From the NCBI GenBank assembly GCA_022826185.1, contig JAJDVH010000246.1:1-53395 (forward strand): a stretch of DNA of 53,395 nucleotides, given 5' to 3'. Source of the stretch: Alphaproteobacteria bacterium (GTDB lineage Bacteria > Pseudomonadota > Alphaproteobacteria > Bin95). Made by a program: the position numbers and the translations under genes. The notes beneath the pieces were generated by a model that was not told the DNA's origin, made no database searches, and saw only the letters and a list, made by a program, of their open reading frames with translations. The first letter of the stretch is position 1. Every line of letters begins with the position of its first letter. Below, piece by piece: positions 12,937 to 42,518 of this stretch.

Positions 12937-13049
12937 CGGAAAATCGACGGCCGGGCCCGACTCCTCGAATCGATTGCCGACGCTATTCTCGATTATCGGG
13001 AGGGCGACTTAATACCAACGGCATCGACTTCAGACTCATGTCTTCTTCT

Positions 13050-13142
13050 CGTCATGCCCGGACTTGTTCCGGGCATCTCCCTCAACCGTGTCCATCCGGC
13101 CAAGCGGCCGCATGGATGCCCGGAACAAGTCCGGGCATGACG
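13050..13142. repeat. REP-like perfect inverted repeat
   Basis: Positions 13050-13077 and 13115-13142 are perfect reverse complements (28 bp). Each arm is itself a hairpin: ATGCCCGGA, loop CTTGT, TCCGGGCAT. The family CATGCCCGG...CCGGGCATG is very common between genes in alphaproteobacteria. It lies between the end of the suf operon and the next gene; its right arm contains the ATG proposed for the downstream gene. It could act as a transcription terminator for suf or as mRNA end protection; this is inference. Confidence 0.85.
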
Positions 13143-14918
13143 GAAGGGAGAGATCGGCCGGCGGGCGCGCAGGAAGACGGGAATGCGCCGTTGCCCGATC
13201 CGGGCGGGCCCGGAGACCTCGGCCCGGCCGAAGACGGCCGGGCGGGGCGCGGCCTCTGGCTGCGGGCGCCGGAAACGGTCATGCGCCTTGCCCGCCTCGG
13301 CGCGTTCCACCAGACGCGGCTGAGCTTCCTCAGAGCGACGCTGCGCCAGGTGGCGGCCGGCGGATACCGCTTCGGCTATGAGCGCTGGGAGATCGGAGAC
13401 GGTGGCGTCGGCGCGGCGGTCTATGCCGCGCGGGGACCGGAGCGGGACTATTCGCTGGTCTGTTTCGCGCACGACCTCGACCCGGCGATGCGCACCGACC
13501 GGGTGATCGCCGAAGCCTGGGACGCCACCTTCGTTCTGTATGACGGCATACCGGATGACAGCGAACTCGACCGTTTGCGCGCCAACGCGCCGAAGCAGGA
13601 GGCCGGACGCTACCGCCACACCGACCTGATCCTCTCCCGCGCCAACAGGAGCGGCCGGCTGTACGACCATGTCGTGGACTGCCTGGCGGCCGGGCGGCAG
13701 CCGGCGGCGGCGCGTCTCGACGAGACCGGCTATGTCATGCGGACGACAGCGGTTTACGGCAACGGCAAGTTCGGCATTGCGGACCGCGATCGCTATGCCG
13801 GCCGCGCCGGTTTCGGCGGCCCTTTCCGCATGGAAATGCTGACGGTCTGGATGATCCGGCAGTTCGTCGCCGATCTCGTCGATCACATGGCGCGGGCCGG
13901 GGGCGGCGCCCGCGCCGCGCCGCTCGACCGGGCGCTCCGGCGCCGGCTCGGCATCGGCAACTCCACCGGCCTCGGCCTCGGCCCGTTCATCGTCAACCAT
14001 CCCGCCCTGTTCGCCCGCTGGGTCGAATGCCGCGAACTGGCGCTGGCACGGGTCTGCGCGCAGGAGACGGCGTCCGCGGAAACCCGGCGCGAATTCCGCC
14101 AGTGGATCGCCCGTGCGCGCGCGGATGCCGCCGGCTGGACCGTGGCCGAGCCGGTGCAGGCGGCGAAAATCGCCCGGCTGTCGGATGATCTGGGCCGTCT
14201 CGACGCCTTTGCCGCCGGGCTCGGCGCGGAGGCGGCCGCGCCCTGGGCCCGGATCCGGGACTGGGCGGCGGAGCACCTGTCGCTGGAAGGTCAGGAACTC
14301 GCCGTGTCCCTGCTCATCGAACCCCATGGCGGCATCGTGGACGACCTTGCAGACCGCATGGCCGTCGAAGAGACGGAAATACTGCCGGCCGGCCTCTCCG
14401 GCCGTGTCCGGGACCTGCGGGACCTTATCGAAGAGGAGTATGGCTGGGCGCTGGAGCCGGACTATGCGAGGCCGGAGGCGCAGGCGCGCTTCTGGTACGT
14501 CTCGGCGAACAAGCTGGAGCCGCGGCTGGGCGAACGGTGGGAAGAGCCGGGCGCGGAGCTGGAGCTGCCGCTGGCGACCGGCCGGGACATCGCCGCGTGC
14601 CATGCCGATCTCGGCAAGGCGGCCGAGGACGAGACGCTCGCCGATTTCCTGCTGCGCCATCCGGAACACCGCCACACCGTCCGCCGGCTCTCGGACCCGG
14701 ACCTTGGGCCGTACGGCCATATTCGCGACAATCTGGTGGGCGCCGGTCTGCTGCCGCTCGACCTGCTGCGCTGCAAGCTGGCGTTTTTCGGCGCGACGCA
14801 CTTCGATCCGAAGTCGGACCGCTGGCTGCGCATCAACATGTTCCGCCACGCGCCCTACCCGGACGAGTTGCAGGCCGGGCCGCCGGACGACTGGATCTAT
14901 CCCCGTCCCGATGGCTGA
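13137..14918 (+). CDS. Uncharacterised 593-residue protein, partner of the DUF3726 gene
   Basis: I do not recognise a named domain. The protein is soluble, with no signal peptide or membrane segment. Notable segments are LWLRAPETVMRLARLGAFHQ near the N-terminus, GFGGPFRMEMLTVWMIRQF, GNSTGLGLGPFIVNHP and, at the C-terminus, ATHFDPKSDRWLRINMFRHAPYPDE. The first ATG of the downstream-most plausible start (13137) lies in a REP arm; the open frame runs further upstream through the repeat. A start closer to GLWLRAPETVMRL is also possible. It overlaps the DUF3726 gene by 8 bp, so the two probably work together. Confidence 0.7.
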   Translation: MTEGRDRPAGAQEDGNAPLPDPGGPGDLGPAEDGRAGRGLWLRAPETVMRLARLGAFHQTRLSFLRATLRQVAAGGYRFGYERWEIGDGGVGAAVYAARGPERDYSLVCFAHDLDPAMRTDRVIAEAWDATFVLYDGIPDDSELDRLRANAPKQEAGRYRHTDLILSRANRSGRLYDHVVDCLAAGRQPAAARLDETGYVMRTTAVYGNGKFGIADRDRYAGRAGFGGPFRMEMLTVWMIRQFVADLVDHMARAGGGARAAPLDRALRRRLGIGNSTGLGLGPFIVNHPALFARWVECRELALARVCAQETASAETRREFRQWIARARADAAGWTVAEPVQAAKIARLSDDLGRLDAFAAGLGAEAAAPWARIRDWAAEHLSLEGQELAVSLLIEPHGGIVDDLADRMAVEETEILPAGLSGRVRDLRDLIEEEYGWALEPDYARPEAQARFWYVSANKLEPRLGERWEEPGAELELPLATGRDIAACHADLGKAAEDETLADFLLRHPEHRHTVRRLSDPDLGPYGHIRDNLVGAGLLPLDLLRCKLAFFGATHFDPKSDRWLRINMFRHAPYPDELQAGPPDDWIYPRPDG

Positions 14919-28992: not shown

Positions 28993-29112
28993 GGCAGGCG
29001 CCCCGCCCGCAGACTCCCGCCGCAGAGGGGCGCCTTCGCTACGGGCCATGGCCGCCGGCGGGAGCGAAACCGGCGGAACGTTCCATAATCCGGTAATATT
29101 TCCTCAAACTGC
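28993..29112. other. Short intergenic gap
   Basis: Between the antiporter stop and the dispersed element I see no gene and no clear terminator. GC-rich sequence with short inverted repeats is present (for example around 29012-29045). Confidence 0.4.
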
Positions 29113-29519
29113 TTGACGCGGAGGGCTGCGCGGCTTATATGGGCGCAAGGAAGCGGCATCCGGAGGCTGCTTCATTTCGCGCCGGCGCCAGCGCGAAAAA
29201 AGCCCGGAGGAATCGGCGGGAGAAGTGCGCCCTCCGTCTCGCGCGCGCAATCAGGCGCGCGAACCGCGCCGGCGCCGACGCCCGCCCGGGCCCGCGCGCA
29301 GGCGCCCGCGCGATACGCGCGAAACAGGGACCCGCCGCAGGCCGGCGGCGGAAGTGAAACCGGAACGAAGGGAAGAGCCTGTGCCGAACACAGACAGACG
29401 CCGGAACCGGACGGAACGCCCGAAGCCCGTCCGAAGTCGGCGGCATCATGCCGGAACAGCATATCGAACAAGCGCTACACGCATGGAGAACATGACAAAA
29501 CATGACACTTCATGACACT
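29113..29519 (+). repeat. Dispersed structured element, copy 2
   Basis: The second copy runs on the plus strand. TTGACG (29113-29118), 17 nt, TATATG (29136-29141) give a promoter-like start. Hairpins follow: 29175-29182 with 29191-29198; TCGCGCGC (29239-29246) with GCGCGCGA (29255-29262) around loop GCAATCAG; CGCGCG-ATA-CGCGCG (29307-29321); CCGCCGC (29332-29338) with GCGGCGG (29345-29351). It ends with CATGACA at 29491, 29501 and 29511, an exact 10-bp period. A 15-codon frame MPEQHIEQALHAWRT ends at the iterons. Similarity to 42107-42518 (inverted) is obvious along the whole length. Confidence 0.85.
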
Positions 29520-29577
29520 CCCCTGGAGGAACCCCTGCCGCCGTCCGCTGCACGGTCAGAACGGGTCGGACCTTGGG

Positions 29578-30045: not shown

Positions 30046-30196
30046 GAAGCTCCTCGTTCTCCGCTTGCCCCTTCTACCGCCGCCGGCGCGGGGCCGCCAT
30101 GTCCGACTTGACGCTGTCGTCGAATCCGCCCGGCTGTCACCTGACGGTCCCGCCCGATGCCGGGGCGGCCGCGATAGAACGGATTGTAGTGCTATC

Positions 30197-30604
30197 TTGA
30201 TTTTGGACCTTCCCTTGGAATTCATCGTATCCGGCATGGCCATTAGCCAGCAGGCGGGGCCCGCGTCGAGGGATGCATGGCGGGACAAAGTACGCGAAGC
30301 TGCGCGTGACAAGCTTCCCAAGGACTACTTCTCTATCGATTCTCCTGTCGCCGTGACCATCTATTTCTTTCCCCAAGGTGAAATGCACGCCGACATCGAC
30401 AACTGCATCAAGTTGATTCTCGACGCGATGAGACCCTCGATATACATCGACGACAAACAGGTGGAACGTCTCGTCGTGCAGAAATTCGAGCCGGGAAGGC
30501 CGCTGGAGATAGCTGACGACCTTACGGAATGTTTGATGACCGCCCTTGCCGCAAGCGAACCCGTCGTTTACGTCAAGGTCAGCATGGACCTTCGCGGGGA
30601 GTAG
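30197..30604 (+). CDS. RusA-family Holliday junction resolvase-like nuclease
   Basis: A 135-residue protein. The pattern HADIDNCIKLILDAM (Asp66, Asp68, Asn69) with SIYIDDKQVERLVVQK (Asp85, Asp86) is the acidic metal site of RusA. The start is uncertain: TTG at 30197 keeps LPLEFIVSGMAISQQAG, which looks like the RusA N-terminal strand; ATG at 30236 would remove it (122 residues). RusA genes normally belong to prophages, but no phage genes are seen here. Base composition is less GC-rich than neighbours. The next gene starts 5 bp later. Confidence 0.75.
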   Translation: MILDLPLEFIVSGMAISQQAGPASRDAWRDKVREAARDKLPKDYFSIDSPVAVTIYFFPQGEMHADIDNCIKLILDAMRPSIYIDDKQVERLVVQKFEPGRPLEIADDLTECLMTALAASEPVVYVKVSMDLRGE

Positions 30605-30609
30605 ACTGG

Positions 30610-31254
30610 ATGACCATCTCCGCCTACGAAGCCGAGGCTATCGCGCTCGACCGCCTGGAGCCACAATTAGAGGCGGAGGGTTATCGGGTGATCCGGCAAC
30701 CGGCTGCAGGCGACCTGCCGGATTTCCTGGCCGGAAGGCGACCCGACGCCATAGCGGTAGGCAAGAAACCCTGCCTGGTTATCGAGGTGCTCCGGAAAGA
30801 AGGCCCAATAGCATTGAAGAAAGTAAGGGACCTCCGCGTCTTGTTGAAAGGGCAGGAGGACTGGGACCTCAAGGTCTACTACTTTTCTTCCATGGAGCCG
30901 TTGCTGGAACCCGTTTCGGATGCCGCCACCTGCGACGCTGTGGCAGCAGCTCGAAGCGTCGTTGAGACCGAGCCCCGCGCTGCTCTGTTGTTCGCGTGGT
31001 CGATTCTGGAGGCCACAACCCGTGTAAGGACGAATGCGGCGGACCCACGCCCGCTGAACCCCAACTCCCTGGTCAATCTGCTGGTCGGCGAGGGCTATGT
31101 CGATCAGGATACGGGGGCCAGATTGTTCCGCATGGCGAAAGTCAGGTCGCAAGTGGCTCACGGTCAAATCGACATTGCGCCCCGGGCGGAAGATGTGCGC
31201 TTCCTGCTTGCCGTCGCCGAAGACGTTTCGGGAAATCTCCAGGCTGCCGAATAG
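30610..31254 (+). CDS. PD-(D/E)xK nuclease-like protein with a HEPN-like C-terminus
   Basis: A 214-residue two-part protein. The N-terminal half has the restriction-endonuclease-like signature of the AHJR type: GYRVIRQPAAGDLPDFL, then PDAIAV (Pro45-Asp46) and CLVIEV (Glu59); the usual ExK lysine is displaced (ExV, then LRK). The C-terminal half is all helical and carries RSQVAH (Arg179-His184), matching the Rx4H motif of HEPN ribonucleases. The fused architecture suggests a defence or stress role; this is inference from motifs. It is coupled to the RusA-like gene by a 5-bp gap. Confidence 0.65.
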   Translation: MTISAYEAEAIALDRLEPQLEAEGYRVIRQPAAGDLPDFLAGRRPDAIAVGKKPCLVIEVLRKEGPIALKKVRDLRVLLKGQEDWDLKVYYFSSMEPLLEPVSDAATCDAVAAARSVVETEPRAALLFAWSILEATTRVRTNAADPRPLNPNSLVNLLVGEGYVDQDTGARLFRMAKVRSQVAHGQIDIAPRAEDVRFLLAVAEDVSGNLQAAE

Positions 31255-31278
31255 GGCGCAACCGGCGGGAGAAGGGCG

Positions 31279-42011: not shown

Positions 42012-42106
42012 AGCAGGCATCCGCCGCCGCCGGCCGTCCATCCGGCCCGCCTCCCAGGGCCGCGCTCCAACACCGCCGCGCGGGGAGACTCCGTGCAGGG
42101 CGTTAC

Positions 42107-42518
42107 GAAGTGTCATGTTTTGTCATGTTCTCCATGCGTATAATGCTTGTTCGATATCCCGTTCCGGCATAACGCCGTCGATCCGGGCAGGGGTTCCGGG
42201 CATTCCATCCGGCTCCTCCGGTTCCTCGTTTTCGGCATGGGCCTGTCCTTTCGATCCGTCTTCGTTTCGTTCTTCCCGCCGCCCGGCTGCCTCGGCGGCG
42301 GGACCCTGATTCGCGCGTATCGCGCGCGGGTGCGGGCGGGTGTCGGCGCCGGCGCGGTTCGCGCGCCTGATTGCGCGCGCGAGTCGGCAAGGCGCAACTC
42401 TCCCGTCGATTCCTTCGGGGTTTTTTCGCGCCGGCGCCGGCGCGAAGCAGGAGGCGAAACGACCCGCGGATACCGCTTCCTCCTACCTTATTCTAGCACA
42501 CACGCCCAGATGTCAAGA
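42107..42518 (-). repeat. Dispersed structured element, copy 3
   Basis: The third copy is read on the minus strand: TTGACA (42516-42511), 15 nt, TAGAAT (42495-42490), then hairpins TCGCGCGC/GCGCGCGA around CTGATTGC (42359-42382), CGCGCG-TAT-CGCGCG (42312-42326) and a 9-bp stem CCCGCCGCC/GGCGGCGGG (42275-42302), which is two base pairs longer than its equivalent in copy 2. It ends with CATGACA repeats (TGTCATG at 42111 and 42121). A 15-codon frame MPERDIEQALYAWRT mirrors copy 2. The copy is inverted relative to copy 2. Confidence 0.85.

Follow-up and report, generated by a model that had tools for sequence, protein, structure and literature searches.

A two-gene RusA and AHJR-HEPN cassette exchanged among Alphaproteobacteria, a candidate genetic-conflict module

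Introduction

Among the described systems closest to the locus studied here is a fusion recorded in the survey of conflict proteins by Anantharaman et al. (2013, PMC3710099), Table 1 of which records HEPN-M domains as “occasionally fused to” an REase that resembles archaeal Holliday junction resolvases and had previously gone undetected. That fusion (HEPN-M, DUF86/HepT, with an AHJR-like REase) combines in one protein the same two domain families as the protein that we describe. Within the main text and Table 1 of the survey the AHJR-HEPN fusion is only a table entry. RusA is mentioned nowhere in that main text, which likewise gives no account of a two-gene module, of its coupling or of the ExK lysine having been lost.

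Other known systems resemble parts of the locus. The MntA-HepT (HEPN-MNT) toxin-antitoxin is a two-gene operon that includes a HepT-like fold with an RxxxxH RNase motif; however, its partner protein is a minimal nucleotidyltransferase, whereas the partner here is RusA (in 79 of 80 loci, the best 80 of 131), the HEPN domain is fused to an REase half, and there is no Tyr for AMPylation after RxxxxH. The Escherichia coli RusA Holliday junction resolvase (1Q8R) has the fold and the D-x-D-N-x2-K ... DD active-site pattern of the RusA protein described below, but the latter is about 15% identical to it, has its own QKFEP-type signature and belongs to a chromosomal cassette with a near-obligatory HEPN partner. 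The archaeal Hjc resolvase shares the PD-(D/E)xK fold and the E9, D46 and E59 positions of the fusion, which differs in being joined to HEPN and in having lost the catalytic Lys, as most of its relatives have. The HEPN half of the fusion is closest in structure to the HEPN ribonucleases Csm6/Csx1; unlike them, the fusion has no CARF sensor and carries the AHJR domain at the N-terminal position instead.

The open-licence literature yielded no paper in which the AHJR-like family is named or RusA is linked to HEPN/HepT, and the only RusA mentioned in a 2025 conference report was that of a phage. As far as that literature shows, the near-obligatory RusA partner was previously unreported. In addition, none of the PADLOC-DB 2.0.0 families matched either protein at E up to 1.

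Results

Organization and composition of the cassette

The window, by which we mean the whole stretch of DNA analysed, is 53,395 nt long (contig JAJDVH010000246.1, positions 1 to 53,395, assembly GCA_022826185.1) and derives from an Alphaproteobacteria bacterium (Bin95). The features relevant to this study are as follows.

About 28993–29573, intergenic: repeat element of about 580 bp, non-coding-looking, with an inverted partial copy at 42102–42446 and a fragment at 1–40
30121–31266, plus strand: whole cassette, the DNA missing at the empty site of congeners G001 and G002
30197–30604, plus strand: RusA-family endodeoxyribonuclease gene, 135 aa, TTG start, stop at 30602–30604 (Pfam RusA)
30598–30612, plus strand: gene junction, a Shine-Dalgarno-like GGGGAG across the RusA stop, then ATG (read from the sequence)
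30610–31254, plus strand: REase(AHJR-like)-HEPN fusion gene, 214 aa, ATG start (Pfam AHJR-like; AF2)
30610–30888, plus strand: AHJR-like PD-(D/E)xK domain, residues 1–93, with E9, P45-D46 and E59 present and L61 replacing the catalytic Lys
30904–31236, plus strand: HEPN domain, residues 99–209, with R179-S-x3-H184-G (fold matches)

The first-pass annotation had described two neighbouring genes 5 bp apart and low in GC, and both observations held. The RusA stop and the fusion ATG are separated by +5 bp, an unusual arrangement, with most relatives overlapping by 4 or 1 bp. The GC content of the cassette was 59.4%, as compared to 69.1% for the window, and was the lowest of 1045 same-size stretches (rank 1). 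A search for a conserved upstream motif or RNA returned weak k-mers at most and no Rfam match, and neither a sigma-70 promoter-like site nor an exceptional terminator-like site was seen.

The RusA protein

The assignment of the first gene to the RusA type was confirmed. Its product matched Pfam RusA (E = 1e-12, 49.3 bits against a gathering cut-off of 22.8) and the PHROG “RusA-like Holliday junction resolvase” (E = 6e-11), and all seven Foldseek matches of its AF2 model (pLDDT 93.1) with E < 0.001 were E. coli RusA chains (1q8r/2h8c, E about 1e-5). The active-site residues D66, D68, N69, K72 and D85 were kept in 87 of 87 sequences and D86 in 86 of 87. As a RusA-family nuclease, the protein may cleave Holliday junctions.

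The REase-HEPN fusion protein

The N-terminal half of the fusion matched Pfam AHJR-like (PF18743) over residues 2–93 (E = 3e-13, 49.9 bits against a cut-off of 26.1), as did all 79 of the fusion relatives. A HepT-like Pfam match was present in 53 of the 79; none of the Pfam HEPN models reached the C-terminal half of the fusion in the window. The AF2 model, built with 75 relatives (mean pLDDT 92.1), consists of a PD-(D/E)xK core (residues 1–93) followed by a five-helix bundle (residues 104–208). The strand and helix order of the AHJR-like half in this model is that of PD-(D/E)xK proteins, and comparison by Foldseek and VIA-align matched its fold to Hjc-type resolvases and other PD-(D/E)xK nucleases at a lower Z of about 7; Hjc was also matched by profile. 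The best fold match of the HEPN half was the Csm6 HEPN (Z 11.6, rmsd 2.9, 114 residues aligned), followed by HepT toxins (Z 9–10), and the Csm6 and HepT alignments overall spanned 108–118 residues. The REase and HEPN folds, for which the first-pass annotation had suggested a check by AlphaFold, were thus both modelled with high confidence, and the refuting outcome named there, a structure prediction lacking these folds, did not occur.

The residues that the first-pass annotation had singled out (Pro45-Asp46, Glu59 and Arg179-x4-His184) are at those positions, and their conservation is far beyond chance: D46 of the P45-D46 pair was found in 86 of 87 sequences and E59 in 77 of 87, and R179, H184 and G185 were present in 86 of 86 ungapped relatives. 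E9 was found in 72 of 87 sequences. The HEPN half is predicted to have RNase activity.

The ExK lysine of the REase half had a different distribution. The window has Leu61 at this position, and Lys61 was found in 22 of the 87 sequences, being absent in three quarters. On a tree of the two concatenated proteins, the presence of the lysine required 9 changes, as compared to 18.7 with shuffled labels, and the lysine-bearing REase halves mostly sit in one part of the tree. Because the lysine is absent in most members, that of the window included, the AHJR half is in most lineages probably no longer a nuclease but a remnant that binds DNA, with RusA as the DNA cutter. The first-pass annotation had taken the AHJR half for the DNA-cutting part of the operon; with Leu61 it is probably no DNA cutter, and RusA, whose active site is invariant, is the likelier DNase.

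Pairing of the two genes across genomes

The pair is not confined to the window. A scan of the GTDB genome collection for the RusA subfamily identified 131 relatives, of which the best 80 were kept, and in 79 of these 80 loci the REase-HEPN gene was directly downstream on the same strand. Defects were seen at two RusA loci, L029, which has lost the partner gene, and L076, a decayed copy. Viewed in reverse, RusA was directly upstream of 13 of 13 full-length REase-HEPN matches in two other genera, one of these RusA genes being frameshifted. One clear exception to pairing was found in the class search (L008/L104). In this stand-alone relative without RusA (L104, at G258:C35:13457-14047) the RxxxxH of the HEPN half is intact and the REase half is decayed, its catalytic Asp-Glu pair being absent.

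The reading frames of the pair overlap by 4 bp in 50 of 86 cases and by 1 bp in 29, together 79 of 86, and overlaps of this kind are a signature of translational coupling. The pairwise distances of RusA and of the fusion were correlated (r = 0.75, permutation maximum 0.12). RusA and REase-HEPN form a real module and not a chance pair.

The insertion site in the window and its congeners

The cassette in the window lies between what we take, from their sequences, to be a DUF192-like gene and a CoA-ligase-like gene. The genome of congener G002 aligns up to window position 30120 and again from 31267, and that of G001 up to 30046 and again from 31263. The empty site in these two congeners has about 75–115 bp between the conserved flanks, as compared to 1.15 kb in the window. 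At the same junction, with both flanks aligning, congener G006 has an insert of about 7 kb (L124:7926-14966) that includes genes for a DNA cytosine methyltransferase (PADLOC MTase_II/DrmMII), a Vsr nickase and a PDC-M33-like ATPase; that is, a defence module occupies the site of the window cassette in this congener. Downstream of these in the G006 insert are three further genes that PADLOC did not match and that could be parts not yet described.

Two genomes, G000 and G005, both carry the cassette at this site. Comparison of the two gave a dS of 0.65 for RusA and 0.44 for REase-HEPN, as against 0.11–0.21 in the flanking genes, and a cassette dN/dS of about 0.28. These values are best read as divergent alleles exchanged at one site and under purifying selection.

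The repeat element upstream, which the first-pass annotation had numbered as copy 2 of an element beside the cassette, does neighbour it, but is a separate insertion. It is absent from this place in G002, G005 and G006 and present in G003; G005 has the cassette without the repeat, and G002 and G006 have neither. The repeat was rejected as a part of the cassette because repeat and cassette are independent insertions. Elsewhere in the window, at 13038–13154, lies a palindromic repeat whose arms, 40 bp long, enclose a CATGCCCGGACTTGTTCCGGGCATC core. Congener G004 has a 91 bp match to it (96%) next to its CoA-ligase gene (L125:2389-2479), and this palindrome is therefore dispersed in the genus.

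Distribution of the cassette

The distribution of the cassette is patchy and its spread is horizontal. Relatives were found in two of seven other congeners of the window, in 8 of 337 of the class, in 12 of 59 species of one genus (one a truncated match, one with two full copies) and in 1 of 29 species of another. Nearly all of the 80 records (the best 80 of 131) are named Alphaproteobacteria, apart from one short contig of a Myxococcota MAG and one labelled Proteobacteria. The Rhizobium and Methylobacterium copies are polyphyletic, each falling into several clades, the cassettes are inserted at many different sites, and six plasmid records, a Ti plasmid (pTi) included, carry relatives. Caulobacter vibrioides, used as a control genome, has a family member with a match to PF18743.

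A phage origin of the pair was considered and rejected: no fusion relative was found in phage or viral collections or viral contigs, and the viral RusA matches were without the partner.

Genes adjoining the cassette in other genomes

The immediate neighbours of 78 cassettes (144 genes) were compared with 144 more distant genes as a control, using PADLOC at E <= 1e-10. When the neighbours were scored in this way for the defence-island enrichment that the first-pass annotation had proposed looking for, no clear enrichment was seen. The immediate neighbours were mostly housekeeping or metabolic genes (CoA-transferase, FliP, CobO, SDR and others), and PADLOC matches among them were few and not clearly above those in the control genes, which were also few; general defence-island enrichment was therefore not shown. 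Several of the neighbour matches come from broad models (mad2, ZorB and SNF2 helicases), of which mad2 presumably catches SDR-like and ZorB MotB-like proteins. Integrase matches were found in 3 of the 144 neighbour genes. Lone insertion of this kind fits toxin-antitoxin, abortive-infection or restriction-type cassettes.

On the Ti plasmid NZ_KY000046.1 (L011) the pair is flanked on one side by a set of imuA, DNA polymerase Y and error-prone polymerase genes together with a LigD-type ligase, and on the other by a gene for an ATP-binding protein. SOS control of the cassette was rejected, as LexA boxes were not enriched in the 78 upstream regions (1/78 and 0/78).

Discussion

The locus is an operon in which a RusA with an intact active site is combined with an AHJR-HEPN protein; the two are nearly always paired, have reading frames that usually overlap, have diverged together, are patchily distributed and have been exchanged at one chromosomal site. 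We interpret it as a two-gene module of genetic conflict that spreads by horizontal exchange, directed most likely against phages or plasmids and of the abortive-infection type, and assign this interpretation a probability of roughly one half. It also draws on the invariant catalytic residues of RusA and HEPN, the two modelled folds, the low dN/dS and the defence module that holds the same site in G006. Counting against it are the mostly metabolic neighbours elsewhere, the absence of a PADLOC match for either protein and the lack, in the phage and viral collections, of copies that would point to arms-race exchange.

How such a module might work can be outlined. RusA and AHJR-HEPN would be made in a fixed ratio and would form a complex, in which RusA and the largely non-catalytic AHJR domain may bind Holliday junctions, replication forks and similar branched DNA. 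Both structures are abundant during phage replication. RusA would cut the branched DNA, the HEPN dimer would be released or activated and would cut cellular RNA via R179/H184, and the cutting of RNA could lead to dormancy or death before phage release. We speculate, tentatively, that this is an undescribed immune module for which branched DNA is the alarm, with RusA and the demoted Holliday junction resolvase domain sensing phage recombination or replication intermediates and switching on the fused HEPN ribonuclease.

The alternative that we take most seriously, while regarding it as clearly less probable than a conflict module, is a toxin-antitoxin-like addiction module in which AHJR-HEPN is an RNase toxin, RusA, encoded first and coupled, counters it as an antitoxin, either enzymatically or by binding, in the way that MntA counters HepT, and the main benefit is maintenance of the locus. 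The gene order, coupling and size of the cassette fit this explanation, as do the scattered lone cassettes among housekeeping genes and the occurrence on plasmids, and Csm6 and HepT toxins are the nearest structural matches of the modelled HEPN half. However, it is weakened because the RusA catalytic residues are invariant, which is more than a binding antitoxin needs, and because genome G537 (L145) has a frameshifted RusA with a substituted active site beside a HEPN with intact Rx4H, a combination for which an obligate antitoxin role of RusA would predict toxicity (a single case from a draft assembly). The lack of a Tyr after RxxxxH, unlike in MntA-HepT, also counts against it.

We consider it unlikely that the pair is an accessory operon for DNA repair or recombination, with two Holliday junction resolvase-type proteins acting on recombination intermediates and HEPN as a structural or RNA-processing add-on. 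The relatedness of both RusA and the AHJR domain to Holliday junction resolvases is consistent with such a role, and so is the position of the Ti-plasmid pair next to imuA, two polymerase genes (DNA polymerase Y family and error-prone) and a ligD-like ligase; the patchiness of a cassette that is horizontally exchanged and the lack of LexA-box enrichment upstream nevertheless weaken it, as does the retention of the HEPN RNase site in a protein whose REase catalysis is eroding. Least probable, and in our view very improbable, is that the cassette is cargo or a remnant of an integrative element or phage with no function of its own. Low GC, insertion at many sites, the integrase matches among the neighbours and the frequent occurrence of RusA as a phage gene family agree with that origin, but the selection data (dN/dS of about 0.28) weaken it, the catalytic residues are conserved, the pair has no relatives in the phage and viral collections, and the extra DNA amounts to little more than the two genes.

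If the cassette is a defence module, as in the interpretation that we favour, it would be a minimal two-gene system that links DNA-junction processing to RNA cleavage. Its trigger would possibly be a DNA structure, one that is hard for phages to discard. As a member of the family is present in the laboratory species C. vibrioides, for which a phage collection exists, the question is directly testable.
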